Positions 20,101 through 33,040 of a DNA stretch of 64,000 bases are shown here, piece by piece. Position 1 is the first letter of the stretch; the number at the start of each line of letters is the position of its first letter. The position numbers and the translations under genes were made by a program. The DNA comes from Allacma fusca (lineage: Eukaryota > Arthropoda > Collembola > Symphypleona > Sminthuridae). The notes beneath the pieces were generated by a model that searched no databases, was not told where the DNA came from, and worked only from the letters and a program-made list of their open reading frames with translations. The DNA lies in the NCBI GenBank assembly GCA_947179485.1, contig OX359246.1:15066001-15130000 (forward strand). The letters run 5' to 3'.

Positions 20101-20606
20101 CGCCTGGATGAAGATACCAATTCAGTAATTATTGTATTTTCAAAATCAGTCTTCAGAAAATAGAGAAAATATTGAGAAAAGCATAATCAAGTTTAACTGT
20201 ACAGGCACGAGTTTGGAGGTAAAGGATTTACTTGAGTTTACCAAATTGAGGCGGTGAGTTTTCACTAAAACTAAAATAAATTATTTATGCACAGTAAAAC
20301 ATGTGACTTACGCTGACAATTTTGCTTTCAGTGAAACAGCTTATACATTATAGATTATTTTGCTTTTTCTTCCACGATTTATTTTTCAAGCAATAATATT
20401 GAAAAATCTATGTACGCATGTCCTTGGATATTAATTCAATTATCAATTGGTTTCCAGAAAATCATTTTTTTCAAATACTCCGTCAGCAATATAATTGTGG
20501 CAAGGATTGAATAAAACAAAAATACACCACAAAAATAGTACATTTTTGTGCAAACTAACAATAAGCTAAGCTGCTTTGTTTTGGGATTCCATTTGTATGG
20601 TACAGA

Positions 20607-21584
20607 CATAGATGCACGTCCTCATGAGGACAGAGTGCAGCACTCGCACTCACCTCGCACTCAGTGTACTCACGAGTTTACTTTGAGGACGAGCACATGT
20701 TATTGCAACCGTGCACTCATAATCATGAGTGCGAGTACATACCACATATTTGTTTATTAATGAGTGCGAGGACGAGAATACAAAAATATACTCATTTAAA
20801 AAAAATGCAATACTCTGCACTCTAGTGTAAAAAATACAATGTAATACTTGGTTTGTATATGTCGTATATACAATTTTGTACAACTACGAAAATTAGAAAC
20901 GAAACAAAATTGTTCAGTGAGTATGATTAAGAATTATACGTTAATATTTCAGTAATAATAATCTTGTGCCAATCTTATGTTTTTAAAAATGAGTTAGAAC
21001 AATGTGAAGCAAAAAAAGCGAAAAACTATTTTTAAACTCATGGAGACTTGTTCAAATAAAAACAATTGAGGCTTAAAAGGTCTGCAATTGAAAATATTTT
21101 GTGTTACCGTAATTTTCGCATCGTTAAACTAAGCATTTTCAAATAACAATTTGCAGCATTTAGCCTTTATCGTCTTTGTAGCCATTGTAAGCATTTGTTA
21201 TTTACTCATGTGTGTTAATCATTTCAAACTGACCATTTTCTGCTTGTAAAAATATTCCAACTTAAAAAGCATTTTCAAATTGATACATATAGTTTTGTTT
21301 GCTTATTAACATAATAAAATTACATGTAAAAATAAATATGGAACAAAATTATTTGCATGCATTGCAAATGGATAAGTCAGGTATGCATACATATGTATAT
21401 ACACATCAAAATCACTCATGAGTGCGAGTGCGAGGATACAATTCTAGTATTCTGTCCTCATGAGGACGAGTGTGAGTGCAGACTTGACATTGTTTAACAT
21501 ATCAGCGGGAGGATGAGTGCAGTTCATTGAAATTGTACTGGAGTGCGAGTGGAGTGCGAGTGCTAAAGAAAATGTGCATCTATG
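20607..21584 (+). repeat. Left terminal module of the composite element
   Basis: MITE-like module with terminal repeats CATAGATGCAC/GTGCATCTATG. Subterminal runs of GAGTGCGAG and CTCATGAGGAC sit at both ends, and the middle is AT-rich and non-coding. The inner terminus supplies the ATG in front of the transposase frame. The inverted partner is at 28271-29228. Confidence 0.85.
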
Positions 21585-22840
21585 GTATGGACGCGATTCA
21601 AACGGATTGTGGTGGATGGAAATTTGGAAGTTAATTTTGTTCAGTGTAATAACTGTCGGTCAGTTTTAGCTAACTCGTCCGAGTCAGGAACTTCAAGTCT
21701 TAATCGTCATAATTGCAAATCTATCACCTCACTATTCATTTTTGGTTTTGTTAAAAAAGGGGTTTCAGAATCATAAAGATTGCAACTTAATGAGAAAATT
21801 GTTACAGGATTATCACAAGATTTACGGGTTTTGAATTCCGTGAACCAAAGAGGATTCAATCTGATTGCACAGTCATTAGTAAATTATGGATCAAAATTTG
21901 GTGCAACTGATATCAGAAAAGTAATTTTTGATAGAACCACGTTGTCCAGAAGAAAACTACGGGATACTTACCAAAACGTAAAAACAAATGTCATGAAAAT
22001 TATTAACTCCAGTCCAACCAGCCGATACAGTTTTACTTTAGACATATGGTCAGAAAAGCACAAGAAAAGACATTTTCTGTCTTTAACAATTCATTTCTTT
22101 GATCTTAATTTCAACTTGAACAGTTATTTGTTCGAAGTAAAGTAGATGCCATCTGATAAAGTGAAAACGACCGATAAAATTCGAAAACTAAGTAAAGAAA
22201 TTTTGACATCGTTTTTTTGGTGATCGAGCCGAAGAAATATTCAGAAATTCCATCTGTATCACAGATTCTGGATCCAACATGATTAGTGTATTTCCGAAGA
22301 GGCTGCCATGCCAATTCCACAAGTTAAATAATATACTGCACAAGTTATAGGAAAAACCTTCAAAGACCCGATGACCTCGAAAAGGCCCAGTTAGTGCAAA
22401 AAAGGCTTACAGAACTAGAGTCAATTTTTAATTGCATTGAAGGTGTAAAGAAACTGGTTGCATATTTTAAGCACTCGGAGCAACTCTGAAACAGCAATTT
22501 GACACAAGGTGAAATAGCCGTTTGGTAATGCCGTAGTCCGTGTGGGTCAACATGGAAAAAGTGGAAACAATTCGTTTGGAGAAAAATCAATTGCAGCGTC
22601 TCGCCGGGTTCAACAAGGATTTGATCAACATTTTGCTGCAGTTTCTGAAGGTTTGAGTAGTAAAGCAAGACCTACGATTCATCTCGTTGCAATTTGGATT
22701 AAAACATTAAGGGACCATTTATCTTTAACAAATACGGATAACGCTGCAATAATATCTTTGAAGAATTATGCTGCAGAATTGTTTAACCGGTATTGCACTT
22801 TGGATATTGAATACTAAGCTGCCTGTATATTTGATCCAGC
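21582..22840 (+). pseudogene. Decayed hAT transposase
   Basis: An N-terminal BED-type zinc finger is visible (VW-x2-F, C-x2-C, then SLNRH). A segment follows with LDIWSEKHKKRHFLSLTIHF, then ITDSGSNM, the hAT D/N motif region. Further down are RPTIHLVAIWI and a segment ending in CIFDPA, matching the pre-insertion TI..V and LDPR regions of hAT enzymes. In-frame stops lie at 21774 and 22143, a frameshift near 22212, and further breaks at 22400-22540. The conserved residues before VW are missing: the frame starts exactly at the inner edge of the left module. The C-terminal dimerisation region was not found. Not functional. Confidence 0.8.
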
Positions 22841-22884
22841 GTAAGTGCGCATTGTTTTTAATTTTATTAAGTGACGCACATAAT

Positions 22885-22980
22885 GATTGATTACATGGAG
22901 GGCACGTAAGGAATTATTTACAGGGAGGCCACTTAAGGTATTCATTATAGGGAGGCCACATATAAACTTAGTTTATAAAT
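22885..22980 (+). repeat. Degenerate ~30-bp repeats (GGGAGGCCACTTA)
   Basis: Three imperfect units of the form GGAGGCCACTTAAGGxATT in plus orientation. The same unit occurs inverted at 27240-27320 and direct at 27415-27610. Confidence 0.6.
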
Positions 22981-24780
22981 AAACAATAGGATTTACAAAT
23001 GATAGAATAATGACATAATTAAAACATTACCATGCACTCTGTAAGCAAGTAAAATAGCCCAACAATCCTAATATGATTTTTCTCCCTGTTTAGCTTCTGT
23101 AAATACGCGTTGAGAATGGACTCATTCCACTCAGGCCCGCAGATAAATATGTTTTCGAATAATGTACCAACACACAAATAGACTAATATCTTACCAATTA
23201 TACTAGCATTCCTTCATGACACTGCAACAATATGAGACGAAAACAATGTGGAGTAATAGGCAGATGCGTCATATTCTGACCTATAAAGGTAATGTCCCCA
23301 AGTAAGTTAACCTATTTTCTACAGTCGCCATTACGGTCACGGCGCCCATCTGGAAAATTTATTAGAAAAAGTCTGTCAAATTTGTATTAGTTCGGGAATG
23401 AATTATGAGTAAATAAACACCATGCATAAATACCTCTGTGAGATCACCTCTTGAGAAACAAAAATGAGATTCAGAGGTATCAATACAGGATTCATGTACA
23501 TAATGCCTCCTTTAAATAATTTAGCCATCAATTAGCTGTGTACCGGGTGGGAATCATAAATATTTAGAGATTAATTTCAGCGTAAGTTTATTAGCTATGC
23601 AACGTCCGTTTTTATTGTTCTAGACTCCAATGTGTTTCATATGAGAAGTTATCGGGCTTGCAATACAAAGCTTCAATCTAGTTGAGTTTGATATTACGAA
23701 GAGAAAATCATATGTGGGAAACCATTGAAAAACAATTTATTAACTAAAAAATTCGGTCTACTTAAATCTGTACTATTTCGAGATGTTTGTTGGTTGATTA
23801 GTGGTAATTATTGAAATAATTACATCAGCTTGGCCGTCATGGTAAGCTGTCGGAATCTGAATGTCGTCATATGAAAATTGAATAATAAACATTTTATTAG
23901 AATTTGCGCTGTACTTGTCGAATTTCTCTAGAATTACTTATAGCAACGGCCTAGAAAGTCCTTTGAAGTACTTACTATTAGTATCCAATGAGTTGTTTAT
24001 TTGTTGCTGTGGTTGTTAATAAAAAACATTGACATCGTCTTGTTCATCAGGATCCGCAATCCGATACTGAATTTCATCGTTCGAAAATTAAAAAATAAAT
24101 ATCAACTCATTAAAATTGGTTCTGCACTTCTCGACTTTCTCTGGATTTTTTTAGAATTAAAAGGATGCAACTGTTTTCGGTAACATGGCTCATATGATTA
24201 AAAACTGTCAGGCTACTTTACAATATACAACCTGCAAGCATTTCACGGAAGTTAATATTTAACAAAGGCATATCAGGTGCAGTGAAGTAATTGCCGTTAG
24301 TATTCCCGTTGCTTCGGTAACTCATAAAACGCCAAGTGTTCGGTGTGTGGATAGAATCACATGGGATGTTATTGGCTCGTAATCGTATCTCGTGATCTTG
24401 ATCTCCTGAGAAATGTTCCTGATTAAGGACGCGATAAGGCTCTAAGACGCTCTCTTGATAGTTTTCACTGAGACGAACAAAGGGCTTATTTCCGGTTCAC
24501 GGGCATAAGGATATTGGTTCACACAAAATTTCAGAAGAAGTTTTGTTTTCTCTAATTCGTTTGAAATTTCAGTTTTCAACCTGTCATTACCGGGAATCAG
24601 GATGTTATTTCTTTCAACAAGCCTGAAACCTCTCAATTGTAATGTTAGCCGCTTTGTAAAATCGCTAATATTTGAATTTCCGTGTCGTTTAAATCGCTTA
24701 ATCGTACGCAGTTTGTAACCGTAGAGTTAGTTACTAAGTGAAGAAGATATGTTTGTTCAAAGACCTACTTCTGAAACCTT

Positions 24781-25175
24781 GTGGGAAGGTGGGTGGGACG
24801 GGTGAATTACATTGTGAAGAAGCGTTGTAGATTCAGTTGTGCTTACTTAAATGAATATTCCTAAAGCCGTTTGTGGCTATGTGTAGGCTGCTTAGGACGA
24901 GAACAGAGACCACAATGGAAGATATATAGCTTCATAGCCTGCGGGATCTATTTTGTAAAAATGCTTTCAAGTTTGTGTAGTTACATACTAGTTCACGTCC
25001 CTAAAGCCGTGTTTAATGTTACGGAAAAGTGGGTGGGACGGGTGAATTACATTGTGAGGAAGCGCTATAGTTTAAGTAGCTCATACTAAAATGCATATCC
25101 CTATAGCCGTGTGTAGCTATACACGGGGAAAATGGTGGGACGTGTGAATTACAGTGTGAAGAAGCAGTAAAATTG
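24781..25175 (+). repeat. Three imperfect copies of a ~100-bp unit
   Basis: The unit GGTGGGACGGGTGAATTACA followed by GTGAAGAAGCG recurs at about 24791, 25029 and 25133. Each is preceded or followed by CCCTAAAGCCGTGTGTAGCTAT. No ORF spans them. Confidence 0.6.
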
Positions 25176-25472
25176 TGCTGCTTCTCTCGTATCTGTAACG
25201 GCTTGTCTAACTGTGCTCAGAATATAATCAATTGTGCAAACATAAACTTTTATGAGTTCGTTCGATAAAATGGGATTACGGCGGGTATTTACAGCGATTC
25301 ATATATCCCGCTGGGGTGTAATATGTAATAATACTGTTTATTCAGGTCAAGTTTGACCTAAGCCCTTACAACCTTTACATTAGTGTGTGCATTAGTTCTC
25401 AAAACAGGCTTCTAATAATACGTTTAGACAACTTAAATTAGTTACTCGCAATACTGGGATAATTTTCAAAGC

Positions 25473-25785
25473 TCAGTAGGTGATTAGGTGTTGCGGCCGT
25501 GCAGTTGTGGTGAAGTACATATAGATTGGTTTCCCAAAAATAGTTTCCGACGATGGAGTGCACCTTAAAGTTCTATACATCCAAGTGGCGAGTGACGAGA
25601 GAAGGTGCTTGACAAGACAGTGCCAAGTTCCGGATGTACTTCCTGTTAGCCAGTAATCTGCAAAAGTTGAATTGCTCAATGACAGCGCAATTAAACATTT
25701 GAGCAGTTTTTAGGACACTGTCGTTATCATGCAGACCTACAAGTTGCGCAAGAGTAATTGCAAATATAAATAAAATCATGATCAT
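25473..25785 (-). other. Unrecognised ORF pair inside the composite element
   Basis: From 25785 a frame begins with a hydrophobic, signal-peptide-like stretch (MIMILFIFAITLAQLVG) and runs 70 codons. An overlapping frame (25679-25473) continues for 68 codons, so a frameshift may have split one small secreted protein. No family recognised, and chance is possible. Confidence 0.2.
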
Positions 25786-26327
25786 ATGTCAGGGTTTTGC
25801 CTAAGTACCAAGTATCTGCAGTATTGTGCTTTATTGAACAATATGGTCTACCAATTATTTATTTTACGAGACACGCTAAAAACTTGTTTTGTTATTTTAA
25901 AACACTTGAAGGATTATTCAATAGTTTAACAAATTTCTGGCATGCTGATTTGCACAAAGTAGCCATTTAATTATTAAATATACAATACTTTCTCTAACAG
26001 AGGCGCTGACGATGCCAAAGAATTATTCTTGAAATTAGTGGCACACCGAAATAATTCCAATCCGAGAGCTAAAGCGAAGAGAATCAATGGCTAATCCAAT
26101 TCAACCTGAAAATTGTGCCAACATTAGGTAAGACGTTTAAAGTTTTACAAGTTTTGTGTAATAAAGTAAAACTGATTCTCAACACCCCCTTAGATTATTC
26201 AATCGGGGTGAGTTTAAAGTAGGAGATGAAGTAAATTAATTAGGAAATACATTGGCGTTAGTAAAATCATGACGTTCCGACAAGCAACATTCCCGTCGCT
26301 TCTGGGTTTGTTATTTCCAAGTTAAAT

Positions 26328-27040
26328 CTAGTCCATATTACTGTACATAACCTGTTCTCCACTGATGTGTTGAATTGTTGCTATATTCAAGCATGCACGA
26401 AAAATGAAATTATTAGTTGCGTTTGCGACATCAATGAAATTGCAAGTGTTGGAATTAGAATAACCTACTGAAGTTCCTAAGTTATATCGAAGTACAGGTG
26501 TCACATTATCTATTATTGGAACAACAAGAAGCTTATAATTGGTCATTATCAGTTAGTATCCTTAGTTCTAAGTAGCTTTTCATCTATTATTATGGGTTTT
26601 AATTGTTTTATTAACATTACATTAAATAGTCATGTAATAATAATACAATGTGGTAGTTCAAACAAACGAATAATTTAAATTGACAAATTTGCGCGCATCG
26701 AATGAAATGTCGTCACTTCCGAAGTTCCATTGCAACCGGTACAGAAATATGTTGAGACATTTAAAAAAGTACACCGGGTGTTGGACACGACTTGTATTGA
26801 ACCGACTCTGAAATAACAAAGGCTGCAGATTTTGCGTTGACAGGAATTAGTGGCCATCCAAAATTGGAAATCAACGAACGGGCTAAATAAGATGTCAAGG
26901 AAGTATTAACAAACCCAAACTTCAGCAATACAGCTAGGAATTCTGGATTCCACGTATTTCGTCTTCTAACATCAACAACTCCCAGCAGTAAAAAACCACA
27001 AAACAACGTTACCTTTAGCTTACAAAATCGATTCTCATGT
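26328..27040 (-). other. Possible minus-strand exons inside the composite element
   Basis: The frame from about 27040 down to 26761 is open for about 90 codons. It contains a hydrophobic core (FCGFLLLGVVDV), RRRNTWNPEFLAVLLKFGF and SNFGWPLIPVNAKSAAF, a non-random-looking composition. A second frame, 26546-26328, reads LLVVPIIDNVTPVLRYNLG for 73 aa. Both could be exons of one captured or nested-element gene. I recognise no domain and could not place splice sites with confidence. Confidence 0.25.
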
Positions 27041-27224
27041 ACTAGTTAAATATCTCACCGAATTAAAACTGCAAACTGACTTACACATTACCCGCTAGAG
27101 ACGCCGTCCAATCTACCTTGAGTAAATCCCCTCAAGCTTCCTTTCTTTCGACCACCTGTAATTTGTAAACAAACAATTTCTTCGACACAAACAAACTCCT
27201 TTCATCCCAATAAAAACTGCTTCA

Positions 27225-27610
27225 ACTAATGCTTACTAATTCCACAAGTGGCATCCATGTAGCAAATTCCTTAAGTGATCTCCGTTTAGCAAATTCCATA
27301 AAAGGCCTCTCTTTTAATGAACTCTGTAGTAAATTCCAATGTTCTCCTTCAATGTCAAGTTCGTATGCAACGTCGTTGTATTAAACGGTGGTCACATAAA
27401 AAAATTGAAACACGCAGGTCACTTCAGAAATTTGCTACACGTATGCCACTTATATTATTCAAACACGGAGGCCACTTATGGAATTAAAACACGGATACCA
27501 CTTATAGAATTAACTACAGAGAGGCCACTTATAGACGTGACTGCAGGGAGGCCACTTATAGACTTAACTGCAGGGAGGCAAATTATGAAATTAAAACAGG
27601 GGGTCACATG
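27225..27610. repeat. Inverted and direct ~30-bp repeats (GAGGCCACTTATAG)
   Basis: 27240-27320 holds two or three minus-orientation units (AATTCCTTAAGTGATCTCCG, AATTCCATAAAAGGCCTCTC). 27415-27610 holds about six plus-orientation units (GGAGGCCACTTATAGACTTA and variants). With the block at 22885-22980 they frame about 4.3 kb, so a nested element is possible. Confidence 0.6.
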
Positions 27611-27647
27611 AGCTTAGCTTGCGCCACCCTTGGTTAAATACAACCGG

Positions 27648-27926
27648 CTAAATAATAAAAATATATAATTGATCGTGTTTACCTCCCATTATGCCAAAAT
27701 CCGTATGATGTCTCGTATCCCGGTGCTGCCGCAGTGTCGGAGTAAACCCGATCTCATTGTGACGGTGAAATATTACAGGGGCAGACAAATAATTATTGTA
27801 GATTCGTTTTGGGGTGTCACAATTATTTGAAACGTTTTTCAATAATTTAAGATTCTGCTTTATTAAATTTTCCAAGTCGAGTCTTTGTGTTAAAGATTCC
27901 GTGAACGCAGAGCACATGACATGGGT
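27648..27926 (-). other. Unrecognised ORF with possible splice donor
   Basis: Frame of about 90 codons (TESLTQRLDLENLIKQNLKL, later TPTLRQHRDTRHHTDFGIMG) followed by GGTAAACA, a possible donor. It could be an exon of element cargo. No family recognised. Confidence 0.2.
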
Positions 27927-28270
27927 GACTTTGTTCCACTATCACTGTTAACGTTTCCAAAATGACCTTGTTGGAGGGACAGAATGGAAAAGTGGTTGCT
28001 CCAAAAATGTATTATTAAAAATCCCAAAGAGGTAGAGAGAGAGAGGAAGATATATTTTATTTATTATTATATTATTTAAGAAATTAAGTATTTAAAAAAT
28101 TGTCGTGCTATTTTGTAGCACAATATAAAAGATCTTATTAACCAGATAAAATAAGCCTGCTGCGTTGAATACTTTAGGCACAGGAAAATATGGTACAGTA
28201 AGTATGTACATCAAAGGTGTCCGCCTGTTCTACATGTAGGGCTATTTGTAGGCTATTTGTAGGCTATTTG

Positions 28271-29228
28271 CATAGATGCACATTTTCTTTAGCACTCGCA
28301 CTCCTCTCGCTCTCAGTACAATTTCAATGAACTGCACTCATCCTCCCACTGATATGTTAAACAATGTCAAGTCTGCACTCACACTCGTCCTCATGAGGAC
28401 AGAATACTAGAATTGTATCCTCGCACTCGCACTCATGAGTGATTTTGATGTGTATATACATATGTATGCATACCTGACTTATCCATTTGCAATGCATGCA
28501 AATAATTTTGTTCCATATTTATTTTTACATGTAATTTTATTATGTTAATAAGCAAACAAAACTATATGTATCAATTTGAAAATGCTTTTTAAGTTTGAAT
28601 ATTTTTACAAGCAGAAAATGGTCAGTTTGAAATGATTAACACACATGAGTAAATAACAAATGCTTACAATGGCTACAAAGAAGATAAAGGCTAAATGCTG
28701 CAAATTTTTATTTGAAAAGGTTTAGTTTAACGCTGCGAAAATTACGGTAACACAAAATATTTTCAAATGCAGACCTTTTAAGCCTAAATTGTTTTTATTT
28801 GAACAAGTCTCTATGAGTTTTTTGCTTCACATTGTTCTCACTCATTTTTAAAAACATAAGATTGGCACAAGATTATTATTACTGAAATATTAACGGATAC
28901 AATTCTTAATCATACTCACTGAACAATTTTGTTTCGTTTCTATTTTTCGTAGTTGTACAAAATTGTATATACGACATATACAAACCAAGTATTAAATTGC
29001 ATTTTTTACACTAGAGTGCAGAGTATTGCATTTTTTTAAACGAGTATATTTTTGTATTCTCGTCCTCGCACTCATTAATAAACAAATATGTGGTATGTAC
29101 TCGCACTCATGATTATGAGTGCACGGTTGTAATAACATGTGCTCGTCCTCAAAGTAAACTCGTGAGTACACTGAGTGCGAGGTGAGTGCGAGTGCTGCAC
29201 TATGTCATCATGAGGATGTGCATCTATG
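28271..29228 (-). repeat. Right terminal module of the composite element
   Basis: Inverted partner of 20607-21584: same termini, same GAGTGCGAG-rich ends, and the same AT-rich core with scattered substitutions and short indels (958 against 978 bp). Confidence 0.85.
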
Positions 29229-29290
29229 GGCACAGATCCCAAAACCTCACGCGTAGCCTTTGAAAGATTCCATGTCTACAATAGGCATTA

Positions 29291-31811
29291 ACATTATCGC
29301 GGGAAGCCCTAGTTGCACACCTCTCGTCGGTTTAAACTGGATTTAAAAACAAATGTATCGAGAACGAAAAAATGTAAAATAACAATATATTTTAGGTCGG
29401 TATAAACTTAGCATTTAAAACAAGTTTTTAAAGTAGTTTGAAGTAATTTGTTAAAAATGGAGCATAATTATACGTACACTATGAAATTCAAGTACCATTC
29501 TCTAGTTTTCATTGATGATTTCAATAACCATAGTTAGTTTTCTAAAATGTTAATAATAATGTGCTAACTATCTTGTGTAACTTCATTGTTTATATTTACG
29601 TACTTTTCCAATTGCTATGTATACTGTTAATATATAGCTTTAACCTTCACTTACTTTTGGTATCCCACTACGTAAATTGTGCAGTAGCTAGGTTTAGGAA
29701 CCTCAAAGTGGATCGACAGTTAATTTAAAAGTCGAATAATATAAATATGTGATCTTGTGAAATATGTAACTCTTATCAATATATAATATGGCGAGATAAA
29801 CCAAAACTGCAGCCATGGAAATACCCGCTAGCGTTTTTTGAAACGCCAAGATGGTTTCAAATCAACGGCAAAATTGTTTAATTTTATTCCAAGAGTTTGT
29901 TTGAAATTCCCAAATTATGCAACATTTAATTTGAGATAAAATCATACTAAATCTATTAGGCAGTACTTCGGGGATGATCGTCAAAATAGTGGAAAAATTT
30001 GATACCCCAGGTTAGGAGAGTCGCAAAGTTCGATGGTGGTCATAGCCGTAACTCAGCAACGTTTAGTCCGATTTTGTTGAAATTTGGTATATAGATTCCT
30101 CATGTGATTGTAATGGGAATCCGTGTCGTCGAAAATTCGAAAAACCAAATGTTAGTGATCCCGAGTATTTTCCGTTTTAAGGATTTGGCACTTTCGTATT
30201 AATGGACCTCATTTAAATGCTTTAAGAGACCGCCGTATCAAATGTTTTATTATAAACGTTTTACTTAAATGTATACTAAAGTGAGTATTTCCTTTTTGTA
30301 AGTTAGATATCGTTACTACTATTATCTCCTATCCAATCAGCCAATTGATTTATCTGTACCTAGGTTTTAGTTATCGAATATGATTAATTGAAAGCAGCAG
30401 TACATCAACAAAAAATAATGAAACAGGTTGGATATATTGTGAAAGTCGAGAGGTGATGAGGATAGAGGGAATAAATTGGTGAGGTCAGGAGATGAATAGT
30501 GGGAATAACTTTTATAAAAAGTATACGTAGGAATAGGGATAAATACAATTAGTAATTAGGAGGAATCTACAATAATGATAACTTTAAGTAGTTATTATTA
30601 GTAGTTAATTATAGATATAAGAGTATCAACTCAGACGCGGAGAAAACCAGAATGGTGAAAATTAGGATGAATAGGAGAGATGAGGCACAATGTTGATCTC
30701 TTGGTCAGAAGAAAGTGAATGAATTGTAAAAATAATTATCGTTACATAATATTTCATAGAATCTTATCTTCTAAAAATGCACCCATTAATATTCTATATT
30801 TTACAGTAAAAATAGTAGGAATAATAATGAGTACAAGAGAGAATAGCATAAATAAGTACAATACACATTTCCATAACAATATAGCATTTCTGTATACCTT
30901 AACGTAACTCGTGGGGTGGGAGATTTACATTAGTATAAGTTGCCTATGCCTGAAAGCAGGAAGGATGCCGAGAAGTGTCCGATCTGCCTTCTTCTTTCAG
31001 GAGTTCGCTAACTTAAGCTACTTTCCCAGTAGGTACGTAACTAGCGGAGCGCCATTTTTTACATGGCGCTTCCCACGTAGGCACATTAGGCGTCGTATAC
31101 AGTGCTGGGATGTTGCTAGCGTGCCGTAAATCGCTGGCCGATCTGCAATGTTTGCAAATTTAGTAAGATATTTTCTATCGGCTGACCCTGCAGTACCCGA
31201 GTAATATCCAGTTACAAACTATAGCTACTCGGGTATACGTACAGGTGTTAGATTCAATGTGGGTACGGGTAATTTTTGGGTACAAGTATTACATGTTACG
31301 CTCTAATTTGGGCACGAATACTGAAAAACGCACCAATGTATACCTATTTAGTACTATGTTATGATCATTTGGTCATACATAAATAATATTCGCTACATTA
31401 TTCAGTCGGCACGAATATTTCGGAATCGTAAATGAAGCATAATTCACTCAGTAGTATGTTAAGATGAAATATCGTTTGATAATACGGATAATCAATATCA
31501 CGACATATCTTGCCATTCAGTGTACGATATGGACGATTATAGTATCACGTTGTTTTATTGTACCAATTGTCACATCATTGACACTGATGGCCATTCAAGG
31601 AAGTGGTATCAAAGATGCCACTTCATTAATTCATCAATACTTAAGCTACGTTCCGAAATGTTTTATTAGGCCTTGCAGTGACTTTCTATTTTTTACTCTA
31701 GAAAATTGTTAGTGTTTCTTTAGAGCTATCATACAGGAAACTGCATGACAAATTTTGAACACAAGAGGGGAAACCCAACTAAAAACGCTGTGCACACAGA
31801 TCAATTTTGAA
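29291..31811. other. Spacer without recognised genes
   Basis: Mostly AT-rich. 30410-30720 is purine-rich on the plus strand. 31180-31330 has GGGTACGGGTA-type repeats related to the element at 9024. No coding sequence supported. Confidence 0.4.
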
Positions 31812-33040
31812 GGAGTTACGATAAAACTCCACCAGAGATTTTTATGCGGAGTTTTGTACGCAGAGAAAACTCCGCGTGAAATTACTACGGTGTAGATAAT
31901 TACGCGGAGATTTTTACGTGGAGAAAATTCCGCCGTAGATTATAACGCCAGGTGAGAAAAATTTACGCGAAGAAATTCCTTTGGGGATTCTTACGCTGCA
32001 TTTAAATTTCACCCCGGAAAAAACAATTTAACTGCCAAGATTAATATTTTCAGTAGAATTGTCTGAGACACGGTCAGTACAAATTGTTCCAGCGAATTCT
32101 TTAAATTCATAATACCAACTAGAGCATCTCGGGCGGTGAAAATTTGCGGGTATGATCTTGAAACCCCGTAAACGCCCGTGAAAAATTCCGAGTGGTGCAA
32201 GCAGGATCAACGTTTGTGAATGCATGTATGTACATATACTTCAATTTATTGAACAAATTTTACCTTTGAAACAAAGCACGACTTAGTGTGCTGGACTTCT
32301 AGCAATTATTGGTTTATTGCATGCCTGACTTTGTTATATAGTAATAGCTTTATTTCGCTATTCATTGCTGGGGAACTTACTAATAATTCAAGTATTGGTA
32401 TTGAAAATCCAGAACATATCAGTGCAATAAACTCAGGAAAATCACCAGAAGTGCCTACCAAAGCTGAAATTAAATCGTTGATTGACATTCACTATCAAAG
32501 AATTACATTACAGGAAATAGCCGGAAAATCGCAAGTTTGGAAAACATTTAAACAGATACTGGTTGATAATAGGTTTCCGTAAATCATGTGAAGTGCAATG
32601 AGTGCAGGAATATTATTAACAGGTAATCAGGCCAAGGAGGGACATCAATTCTGGCCAAATATAATTGCAAGCATTGTGCAGGGGAGTTACCAACTTCATT
32701 TAAAAAAAAGTCGCCAATGCAAAATTGAATGAACAAATTGTTCTGGGTATAGCTACGGATTTACAAGCTGAACTGGTATTTACGAAAGAGCTACGGGTTT
32801 TTTTATATGTATGGGCCAAGGGACTAAAATATCCCAAGGGGAGGCACTCTAATGCTAGCCATAATGGTTGGGTACTACAATAAATAAATGGTATGAAGAT
32901 GAGAAGGTCAGAACGTTGCGTAAAAATCTCCGGCGGAATTTTTTCCGCGTAAGAATCTTCGAGTATTTATCTCCACCCGGGCGTAAATAACTTGGAGTTT
33001 TCGCGGCGTACAAATCTCGGCGGAATTTTCTCCGAACACG
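31812..33040 (+). mobile_element. hAT element with transposase remnants and GGAGAAAACTCC repeats
   Basis: The ends are imperfect inverted repeats (GGAGTTACGATAAAACTCC left; CGTGTTCGGAGAAAATTCC on the reverse of the right). Both ends carry tandem words like TACGCGGAGAAAATTCCGC. Flanking 8-mers ATTTTGAA (31804-31811) and ATTTTAAA (33041-33048) differ at one base. The interior has a broken hAT transposase. A shorter relative in opposite orientation is at 50595-51356. Confidence 0.8.
32440..32870 (+). pseudogene. hAT transposase N-terminal fragment
   Basis: Reads SQVWKTFKQILVDN, then after a one-base shift VNHVKCNECRNII, the first half of a BED zinc finger (VW-x2-F, C-x2-C). About 80 bases later a frame gives KLNEQIVLGIATDLQ, then ERATGFF, aligning with LNEKIVTGLSQDLRVLNSVN in the transposase at 21582. 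Several frameshifts; the catalytic region is absent. Confidence 0.65.

Follow-up and report, generated by a model that had tools for sequence, protein, structure and literature searches.

The locus considered here is an 8,622-bp block in the genome of the springtail Allacma fusca that splits a receptor-like exon in two and is bounded by inverted copies of one short transposable element, an arrangement that very probably arose when the two copies and the DNA between them moved as a single piece. It lies in a window of 64,000 nucleotides (C8:15066001-15130000, contig OX359246.1; unprefixed positions below are those of the window) of a genome of 392.7 Mb in 91 contigs. The left copy, M1 (20607-21584, plus strand), is a 978-bp non-autonomous element with inverted ends of 11-13 bp, delimited by BLAST and MAFFT alignment against the right copy and against single copies elsewhere in the genome; the right copy, M2 (28271-29228, minus strand; 958 bp), is its inverted sister. 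We term the two termini of the element end1 and end2: end1 is outermost in both modules, and end2 is innermost in M1. The terminal sequence CATAGATGCAC has four exact matches in the window (at 20607 and 28271, and on the minus strand at 21574 and 29218), and the modules are separated by 6,686 bp. The original prediction, made from the sequence alone, of two inverted modules of ~970 bp with their own ends around 6.7 kb is thereby confirmed to the base by the ends and the alignment. Immediately outside the modules lie the two copies of a target-site duplication (TSD) of 8 bp, GGTACAGA on the left (20599-20606) and GGCACAGA on the right (29229-29236), recognized by their match to each other and by the absence of a gap at the junction when the flanks are joined. 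Around these are the 3' half of the split exon (20484-20603, minus strand), identified by tblastn with paralogues from the window and by the joined alignment, and its 5' half (29250-29306, minus strand), for which a weak tblastn match (E 0.09) was confirmed by the DNA alignment of the joined flanks.

A genome search with M1, in which the best 40 of 184 candidates were scored, returned 43 rows, two of them the window's own, and the others were fetched as 38 stretches. Both ends are present in 31 of these, the remaining seven being without one end in the stretch, and 29 of the 31 two-ended single copies, for which the original prediction had suggested a search, are flanked by a perfect 8/8 TSD of their own (L019 has 7/8 and L031 5/8; the TSD of L029 was read by eye, and the ends of L038, one of which the alignments missed, were found separately, both being counted within the 31). 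Patterns of the two ends, with at most 3 mismatches, occur at 121 end2-like and 181 end1-like places, and reversed-pattern controls at none. Given these TSDs and the many end matches, the module is therefore an ordinary, abundant, non-autonomous element with 8-bp TSDs. Aligned with the reverse complement of M2, M1 shows 934 identities, 22 substitutions and 24 gap columns over 980 columns (97.7% identity, counting aligned bases only). A tree built from 29 copies, comprising M1, M2 and 27 of the 38 fetched stretches (the other 11 were excluded owing to an end missing from the alignment or a length outside 850-1050 bp), places the two as sisters with a support of 100/99 and branches of 0.012 each, and they have in common 18 derived substitutions found neither in L009 nor in the majority of the remaining copies. 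The closest other module among those scored is 95.5% identical and has a perfect TSD of its own. M1 and M2 both cover the full length of the family's element, their termini intact, and contain no open reading frame (ORF) of at least 90 amino acids; they are short, multicopy, bounded by terminal inverted repeats and without identified coding capacity, as are miniature inverted-repeat transposable elements (MITEs).

Neither module has a TSD of its own in the window: its two flanks agree at 1/8 positions for M1 and at 2/8 for M2. The outermost flanks, GGTACAGA and GGCACAGA, agree at 7/8, a level or better being expected from base composition alone with a chance of 7e-4. Thus, the matching 8-mers originally predicted at the outermost ends are there in 7/8 form, and the single-unit reading, for which an 8-bp duplication around each module by itself had been named as the refutation, survives this comparison. 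When the flanks are joined minus one 8-mer, a receptor-like exon is restored, and the junction is ungapped against eight hand-chosen paralogues from the window. A genome search with the joined 592 bases, in which 12/12 candidates were scored, found nine paralogous exon places that cross the junction in one piece, the remaining candidates being the two flanks themselves and one short match at query positions 527-580 only. The split exon is a pseudogene, related to a tandem array within the window, and the interior is foreign to it because the exon closes exactly. The prediction of a GR pseudogene spanning the gap accordingly holds for the continuity of the exon across both sets of paralogues and is not confirmed for the name GR, one apparently intact paralogue giving no Pfam match above the cut-off and no PDB match.

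The two exon halves both adjoin end1, whereas a single copy has one end of each kind. Recombination, gene conversion or an assembly misjoin running through a module leaves every flank attached to the same type of end as before, and therefore none of them turns a single insertion into an end1/end1 arrangement. This bears on the improbable alternative that two separate insertions at the exon were followed by recombination between the copies, by inversion or conversion, or by loss of the TSDs: inverted modules this alike are a good substrate for exchange, but homologous exchange of a single insertion would place end1 at one exon half and end2 at the other, the TSD pairs that an inversion should have exchanged agree at just 3/8 and 2/8, and the interior does not derive from the exon. 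It also bears on a misjoin via the ~975-bp repeats, which are plentiful by the above count of end-like places; a misjoin through the module cannot put end1 at both exon halves with a shared 8-bp duplication, and the HiFi reads of the Allacma fusca assembly come, as its genome report describes them, from fragments of 12-20 kb (PMC10427803), exceeding the length of the unit, which makes such an artefact very improbable. From the arrangement of the ends, we infer that the insertion event itself proceeded through two end1 termini.

The inner junctions of the modules furnish strong new evidence for arrival as a single unit. To the right of M1 lies the 3' part of an older, unrelated hAT element (21585-22885, plus strand), a decayed transposase exon that is 86-91% identical to three places, C5:1256144 (L048), C10:50707816 (L049) and C8:70429931 (L051), the match to all three starting at exactly base 21585. 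These three copies carry ~620 bp further to the left, 92-94% identical among themselves, a part that is missing here (the 623-bp left part from L048 has no significant match in the window, with a best E of 0.08), and at the point corresponding to the inner junction of M1 all of them read ...AAATCAGCT|GTATGGAC.... In a version of the L048 place with more flank (L059), the equivalent of base 21585 is codon 63 of a 495-aa ORF, and the locus bears the Pfam domain Dimer_Tnp_hAT (PF05699, the hAT C-terminal domain; E 7.7e-13). The left end of these hAT copies reads TAGAGGTGGGGC, with L049 having three bases ahead of it. The inner flank of M1 (21585-21592, GTATGGAC) is presumably the orphan half of its original TSD, still within the interrupted hAT gene; M1 thus seems to have first landed in a hAT transposase gene elsewhere, with GTATGGAC as its target 8-mer, and the left half of that gene would have stayed behind.

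The inner flank of M2 (28263-28270, GCTATTTG) is likewise presumed to be the orphan half of its original TSD and lies within an 11-bp tandem repeat, because of which the right inner boundary is less sharp than the left. The adjoining segment (27708-28269) has a single further match among the scored places, C8:15259126-15260586, with 78-83% identity except for a 43-bp stretch at 95%; the homology ends at 28269, and the other place runs on past the start of M2 into sequence that is absent from the window. That place, ~165 kb from the composite on the same chromosome and in the opposite orientation, is the only other one found to resemble the right part of the cargo, and it is a paralogue, not the donor. 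The intervening DNA is of foreign origin by both its borders, a truncated hAT element on the left and, less exactly, a truncated second context on the right, and these truncated contexts argue that both modules were inserted elsewhere and arrived as one unit.

The remainder of the cargo (22886-28262) is a mosaic of dispersed repeats, low-copy DNA and 27-bp tandem repeats, with only partial genome matches at different places. The closest other match to the interior is 91% identical over 1.3 kb only (among the best 40 of 487 candidates, to which all statements on further copies of the interior refer). No cargo gene was identified and no Pfam family was found in the three plus-strand frames, read with stops as X. 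The 27-bp tandem repeats (GGGAGGCCACTTATAGA...) occur at 22891-22959, 27238-27301 and 27445-27601 in direct and inverted orientation and are part of a dispersed repeat family with dozens of matches. Outside the unit, a further remnant of a hAT transposase, likewise decayed and with 36-41% identity to the L059 ORF, lies at 32253-32710. The presence of transposase sequence just inside the left arm, together with arms that are long, nearly perfect and inverted, recalls a single foldback-like element, of which the modules would be the long inverted repeats and the middle its own coding body. Such an origin is scarcely credible: each arm is a whole element whose inner end is intact, the transposase sequence comes from another hAT, the one with the left end TAGAGGTGGGGC, and a second copy of arms plus middle was not found among the scored candidates.

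On the strength of features directly legible in the sequence, namely a family of single copies with 8-bp TSDs, modules lacking TSDs of their own, outer flanks agreeing at 7/8, an exon that is restored on joining and inner contexts that are truncated, we consider it highly probable that the locus is the product of macrotransposition, in which two linked inverted copies were excised as an 8,622-bp block by their outer end1 ends and inserted in the receptor-like exon. Two sister non-autonomous copies of ~975 bp would have inserted elsewhere in opposite orientation, ~6.7 kb apart, M1 inside the decayed hAT transposase gene and M2 in the 11-bp tandem repeat; a transposase supplied in trans would then have paired the two outward-facing ends, both of them end1; and the whole block would have been cut out and inserted into exon 1 of the receptor-like gene, with the making of an 8-bp duplication. 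What we infer from these observations is that the block was cut and pasted rather than copied, that a transposase took part, and in what order the events took place. The central claim of the original prediction, that 8.6 kb moved as one unit, is well supported by the tests of own TSDs, exon closure and inner junctions.

The same final anatomy could be generated by composite insertion through reversed-ends transposition during replication, of the maize Ac/fAc type, with the donor retained. Along this route, two nearby copies are cut at the ends that face each other, these ends are inserted, re-replication of the flanks follows and the broken ends are joined, giving the order TSD - copy - flank|flank - copy - TSD; it is documented for Ac in the account of PMC4270019, and the mosaic interior of the springtail unit could conceal an end-joining junction. 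However, it should leave a donor with near-identical modules and flanks: M1 and M2 are split by only ~2.4%, the nearest other module scored is the 95.5% copy with its own perfect TSD, and the best other interior match is the one over 1.3 kb. The donor may have been lost later. Because no near-identical interior or modules were found among the candidates scored, cut-and-paste macrotransposition is preferred, and we regard composite insertion as unlikely.

Several observations weigh against macrotransposition and should be set beside it. The outer TSD is imperfect at 7/8, and the same level is reached by 4/812 mismatched pairs of real TSDs of the module family; the outer match alone is therefore suggestive, not decisive. 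The right inner junction, with its tandem repeat and a single diverged relative (78-83%), is less exact than the left one. Pairing of like ends is unusual, 68/69 convergent neighbours within 20 kb among the listed ends (100 of the 181 end1 and 100 of the 121 end2 places, the window's own end1 places being among the unlisted) being of the end1-end2 kind. An empty allele of the receptor-like exon was not found in the assembly among the 12/12 scored candidates, nor was a donor site or footprint among the best 40 of 401 and 40 of 1043 candidates for its two sides, nor a second copy of the whole interior. Finally, a transposase partner was not identified among the P-type matches and the five larger elements (L083-L087) described next.

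The one character that points to a hAT-type assignment of the modules is the 8-bp TSD, present at 8/8 in 29/31 single copies, and the assignment is not established. TSDs of 8 bp are common to the hAT and P superfamilies, and hAT elements have the target preference nTnnnnAn. This pattern fits only 2/30 TSDs of the module family, in which position 3 instead tends to be a pyrimidine and position 6 a purine, each at 80% after symmetrising (n=30; 28 single copies, with L019 represented by its left copy, plus L082 and the left copy of the composite, leaving out L031, L038 and also L026, which is the same insertion as L016). A P-like alternative was considered beside the hAT TSD pattern, and a search with the P-type GTP-binding domain gave 32 matches; one of these is 7 kb away from L010, a complete single copy, and the others are all more than 20 kb from any listed end. 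A P-type transposase as partner therefore finds no support among the listed ends. Larger candidates were sought among the 14 listed end1-end2 pairs of more than 1.1 kb, of which five (L083-L087, 2.7-4.4 kb) were fetched. All five were rejected as autonomous partners, the module sequence being interrupted by other DNA in each, with several modules among them interrupted by ~2 kb or more. Their own TSDs are 8/8 in L085-L087, 7/8 in L083 and 3/8 in L084, whose right end is duplicated. L083 and L084 each consist of a module into which DNA has been inserted, their longest ORF not exceeding 146 aa, and L085-L087 show no Pfam family above the cut-off. An ORF of L085 that by eye resembles a hAT C-terminus is unsupported by Pfam, with nothing in PDB; only five of the 88 genome matches to this 71-aa frame fall no more than 20 kb from a listed end, L085 itself included. 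The hAT label of the original prediction is accordingly unproven: the preferred target is found in 2/30 TSDs, no autonomous partner was found among the elements fetched, and the internal hAT fragment is part of another element that was hit by M1.

Further features of the family emerged from these searches. The listed ends form 69 convergent pairs, 54 of which are 0.5-1.02 kb apart; 11/69 span 518-532 bp and constitute another size class, bounded by the same pair of ends, which may be a shortened form of the element. The single module L031 (C12:16875080-16876078) is complete with flanks agreeing at 5/8 (GTACTCGG/GTGTTTGG), the three differences all being transitions, and could be a product of recombination between copies. 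L016 (C9:21616570) and L026 (C8:28449914) have the same flanks and TSD on two chromosomes, and since 2.26 kb are common to them at 97.8% identity, a larger repeat or duplication carries the module there. L016 and L017, 9.9 kb apart, have identical module sequences and different TSDs; similarly, L028 (C12:10911301) and L030 (C12:9331352), 1.6 Mb apart, are identical in the columns of the tree with different TSDs, a pairing that suggests recent activity of the module family. A literature search for CATAGATGCAC as a terminal sequence turned up no title on transposons.

No further composite was found among the 69 listed end pairs. One candidate, an end2-end2 pair 10.6 kb in extent (C12:36310650-36321246), was rejected as a second composite: its outer flanks, CATGCAAC and GCCTGGCC, mismatch, and its right copy (L082) has its own 8/8 TSD, GCCTGGCC. 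Judged from the TSD of the right copy, this pair reads as two independent insertions. The proposal that the modules gained the ability to carry cargo goes beyond the data, which, with no second interior copy and no other composite among the listed ends, speak for a single event only. With respect to the pairing of like ends, end1 and end2 have a 13-bp terminus in common, and the 975-bp consensus contains 17 GCACTC hexamers against a mean of 0.18 in shuffles, each of the 17 lying no more than 217 bp from one end or 172 bp from the other. Such dense GCACTC motifs at both ends could let either end be bound, making a like-end pairing plausible. It is a doubtful extension of this idea that the transposase of the family can generally synapse two same ends, by which any nearby inverted pair would potentially be a mobile composite.

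The springtail unit is a macrotransposon, in a like-ended variant: it has complete copies at both ends, a TSD around the outer ends and not around each copy, and cargo from elsewhere. Macrotransposons and composite insertions of Ac/Ds, with reported sizes of 10.3 and 28 kb, have been described in maize (PMC9910405; PMC4270019). As these reports portray them, it is there too the outer ends of a pair of copies of one class II element that react, and the intervening DNA moves with 8-bp TSDs; however, a 5' terminus reacts with a 3' terminus, while the springtail unit has end1 at both, and its copies are non-autonomous and its host an animal. The initial notion of a eukaryotic analogue of the bacterial composite transposon therefore describes a phenomenon already known as Ac/Ds macrotransposition, with the like-ended pairing as a variant of it. 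In the Anopheles P-element MITE AgaP2-P12MITE, which has 8-bp TSDs, macrotransposition of two linked copies was proposed for a chimaeric MITE (PMC1562414); that account is hypothetical and concerns a small MITE whose middle has been lost, whereas in the springtail the middle can still be read, as can the source contexts and the target. The Drosophila Galileo inversions offer a similarly inverted pair of copies in which TSD bookkeeping separates the mechanisms: the TSDs are reported as exchanged there, showing ectopic recombination, unlike the springtail unit, where the exchange tests fail and the outer pair matches (PMC2775673). Alternative transposition has also recently been inferred for VANDAL21 of Arabidopsis, according to PMC12312487. 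An animal case with like ends was not encountered in a literature search of openly licensed papers, so far as their consulted portions extend.

The arrangement of inverted end copies, a like-ended outer pair and cargo is shared with Tn10. In that and other bacterial composite transposons, the flanking insertion sequence encodes the transposase, whereas the springtail modules have no identified coding capacity and the cargo no identified intact gene. The requirement of one left and one right end for transposition is a rule from maize Ac and Drosophila P, and the like-ended pairing calls this rule into question. The finding is real, clean and of moderate interest: a natural case of en-bloc transposition in an animal, it leaves its target, its source contexts and both copies of the element legible, and the accounting of end types speaks against recombination as well as simple misjoins. 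Many such composites would be annotated as two separate small elements, and a screen by end type and TSD across pairs of copies is applicable to any genome for counting such events. If like-end synapsis were indeed a property of the family, the genome would hold a class of like-ended composites moving arbitrary cargo, and not a single accident.

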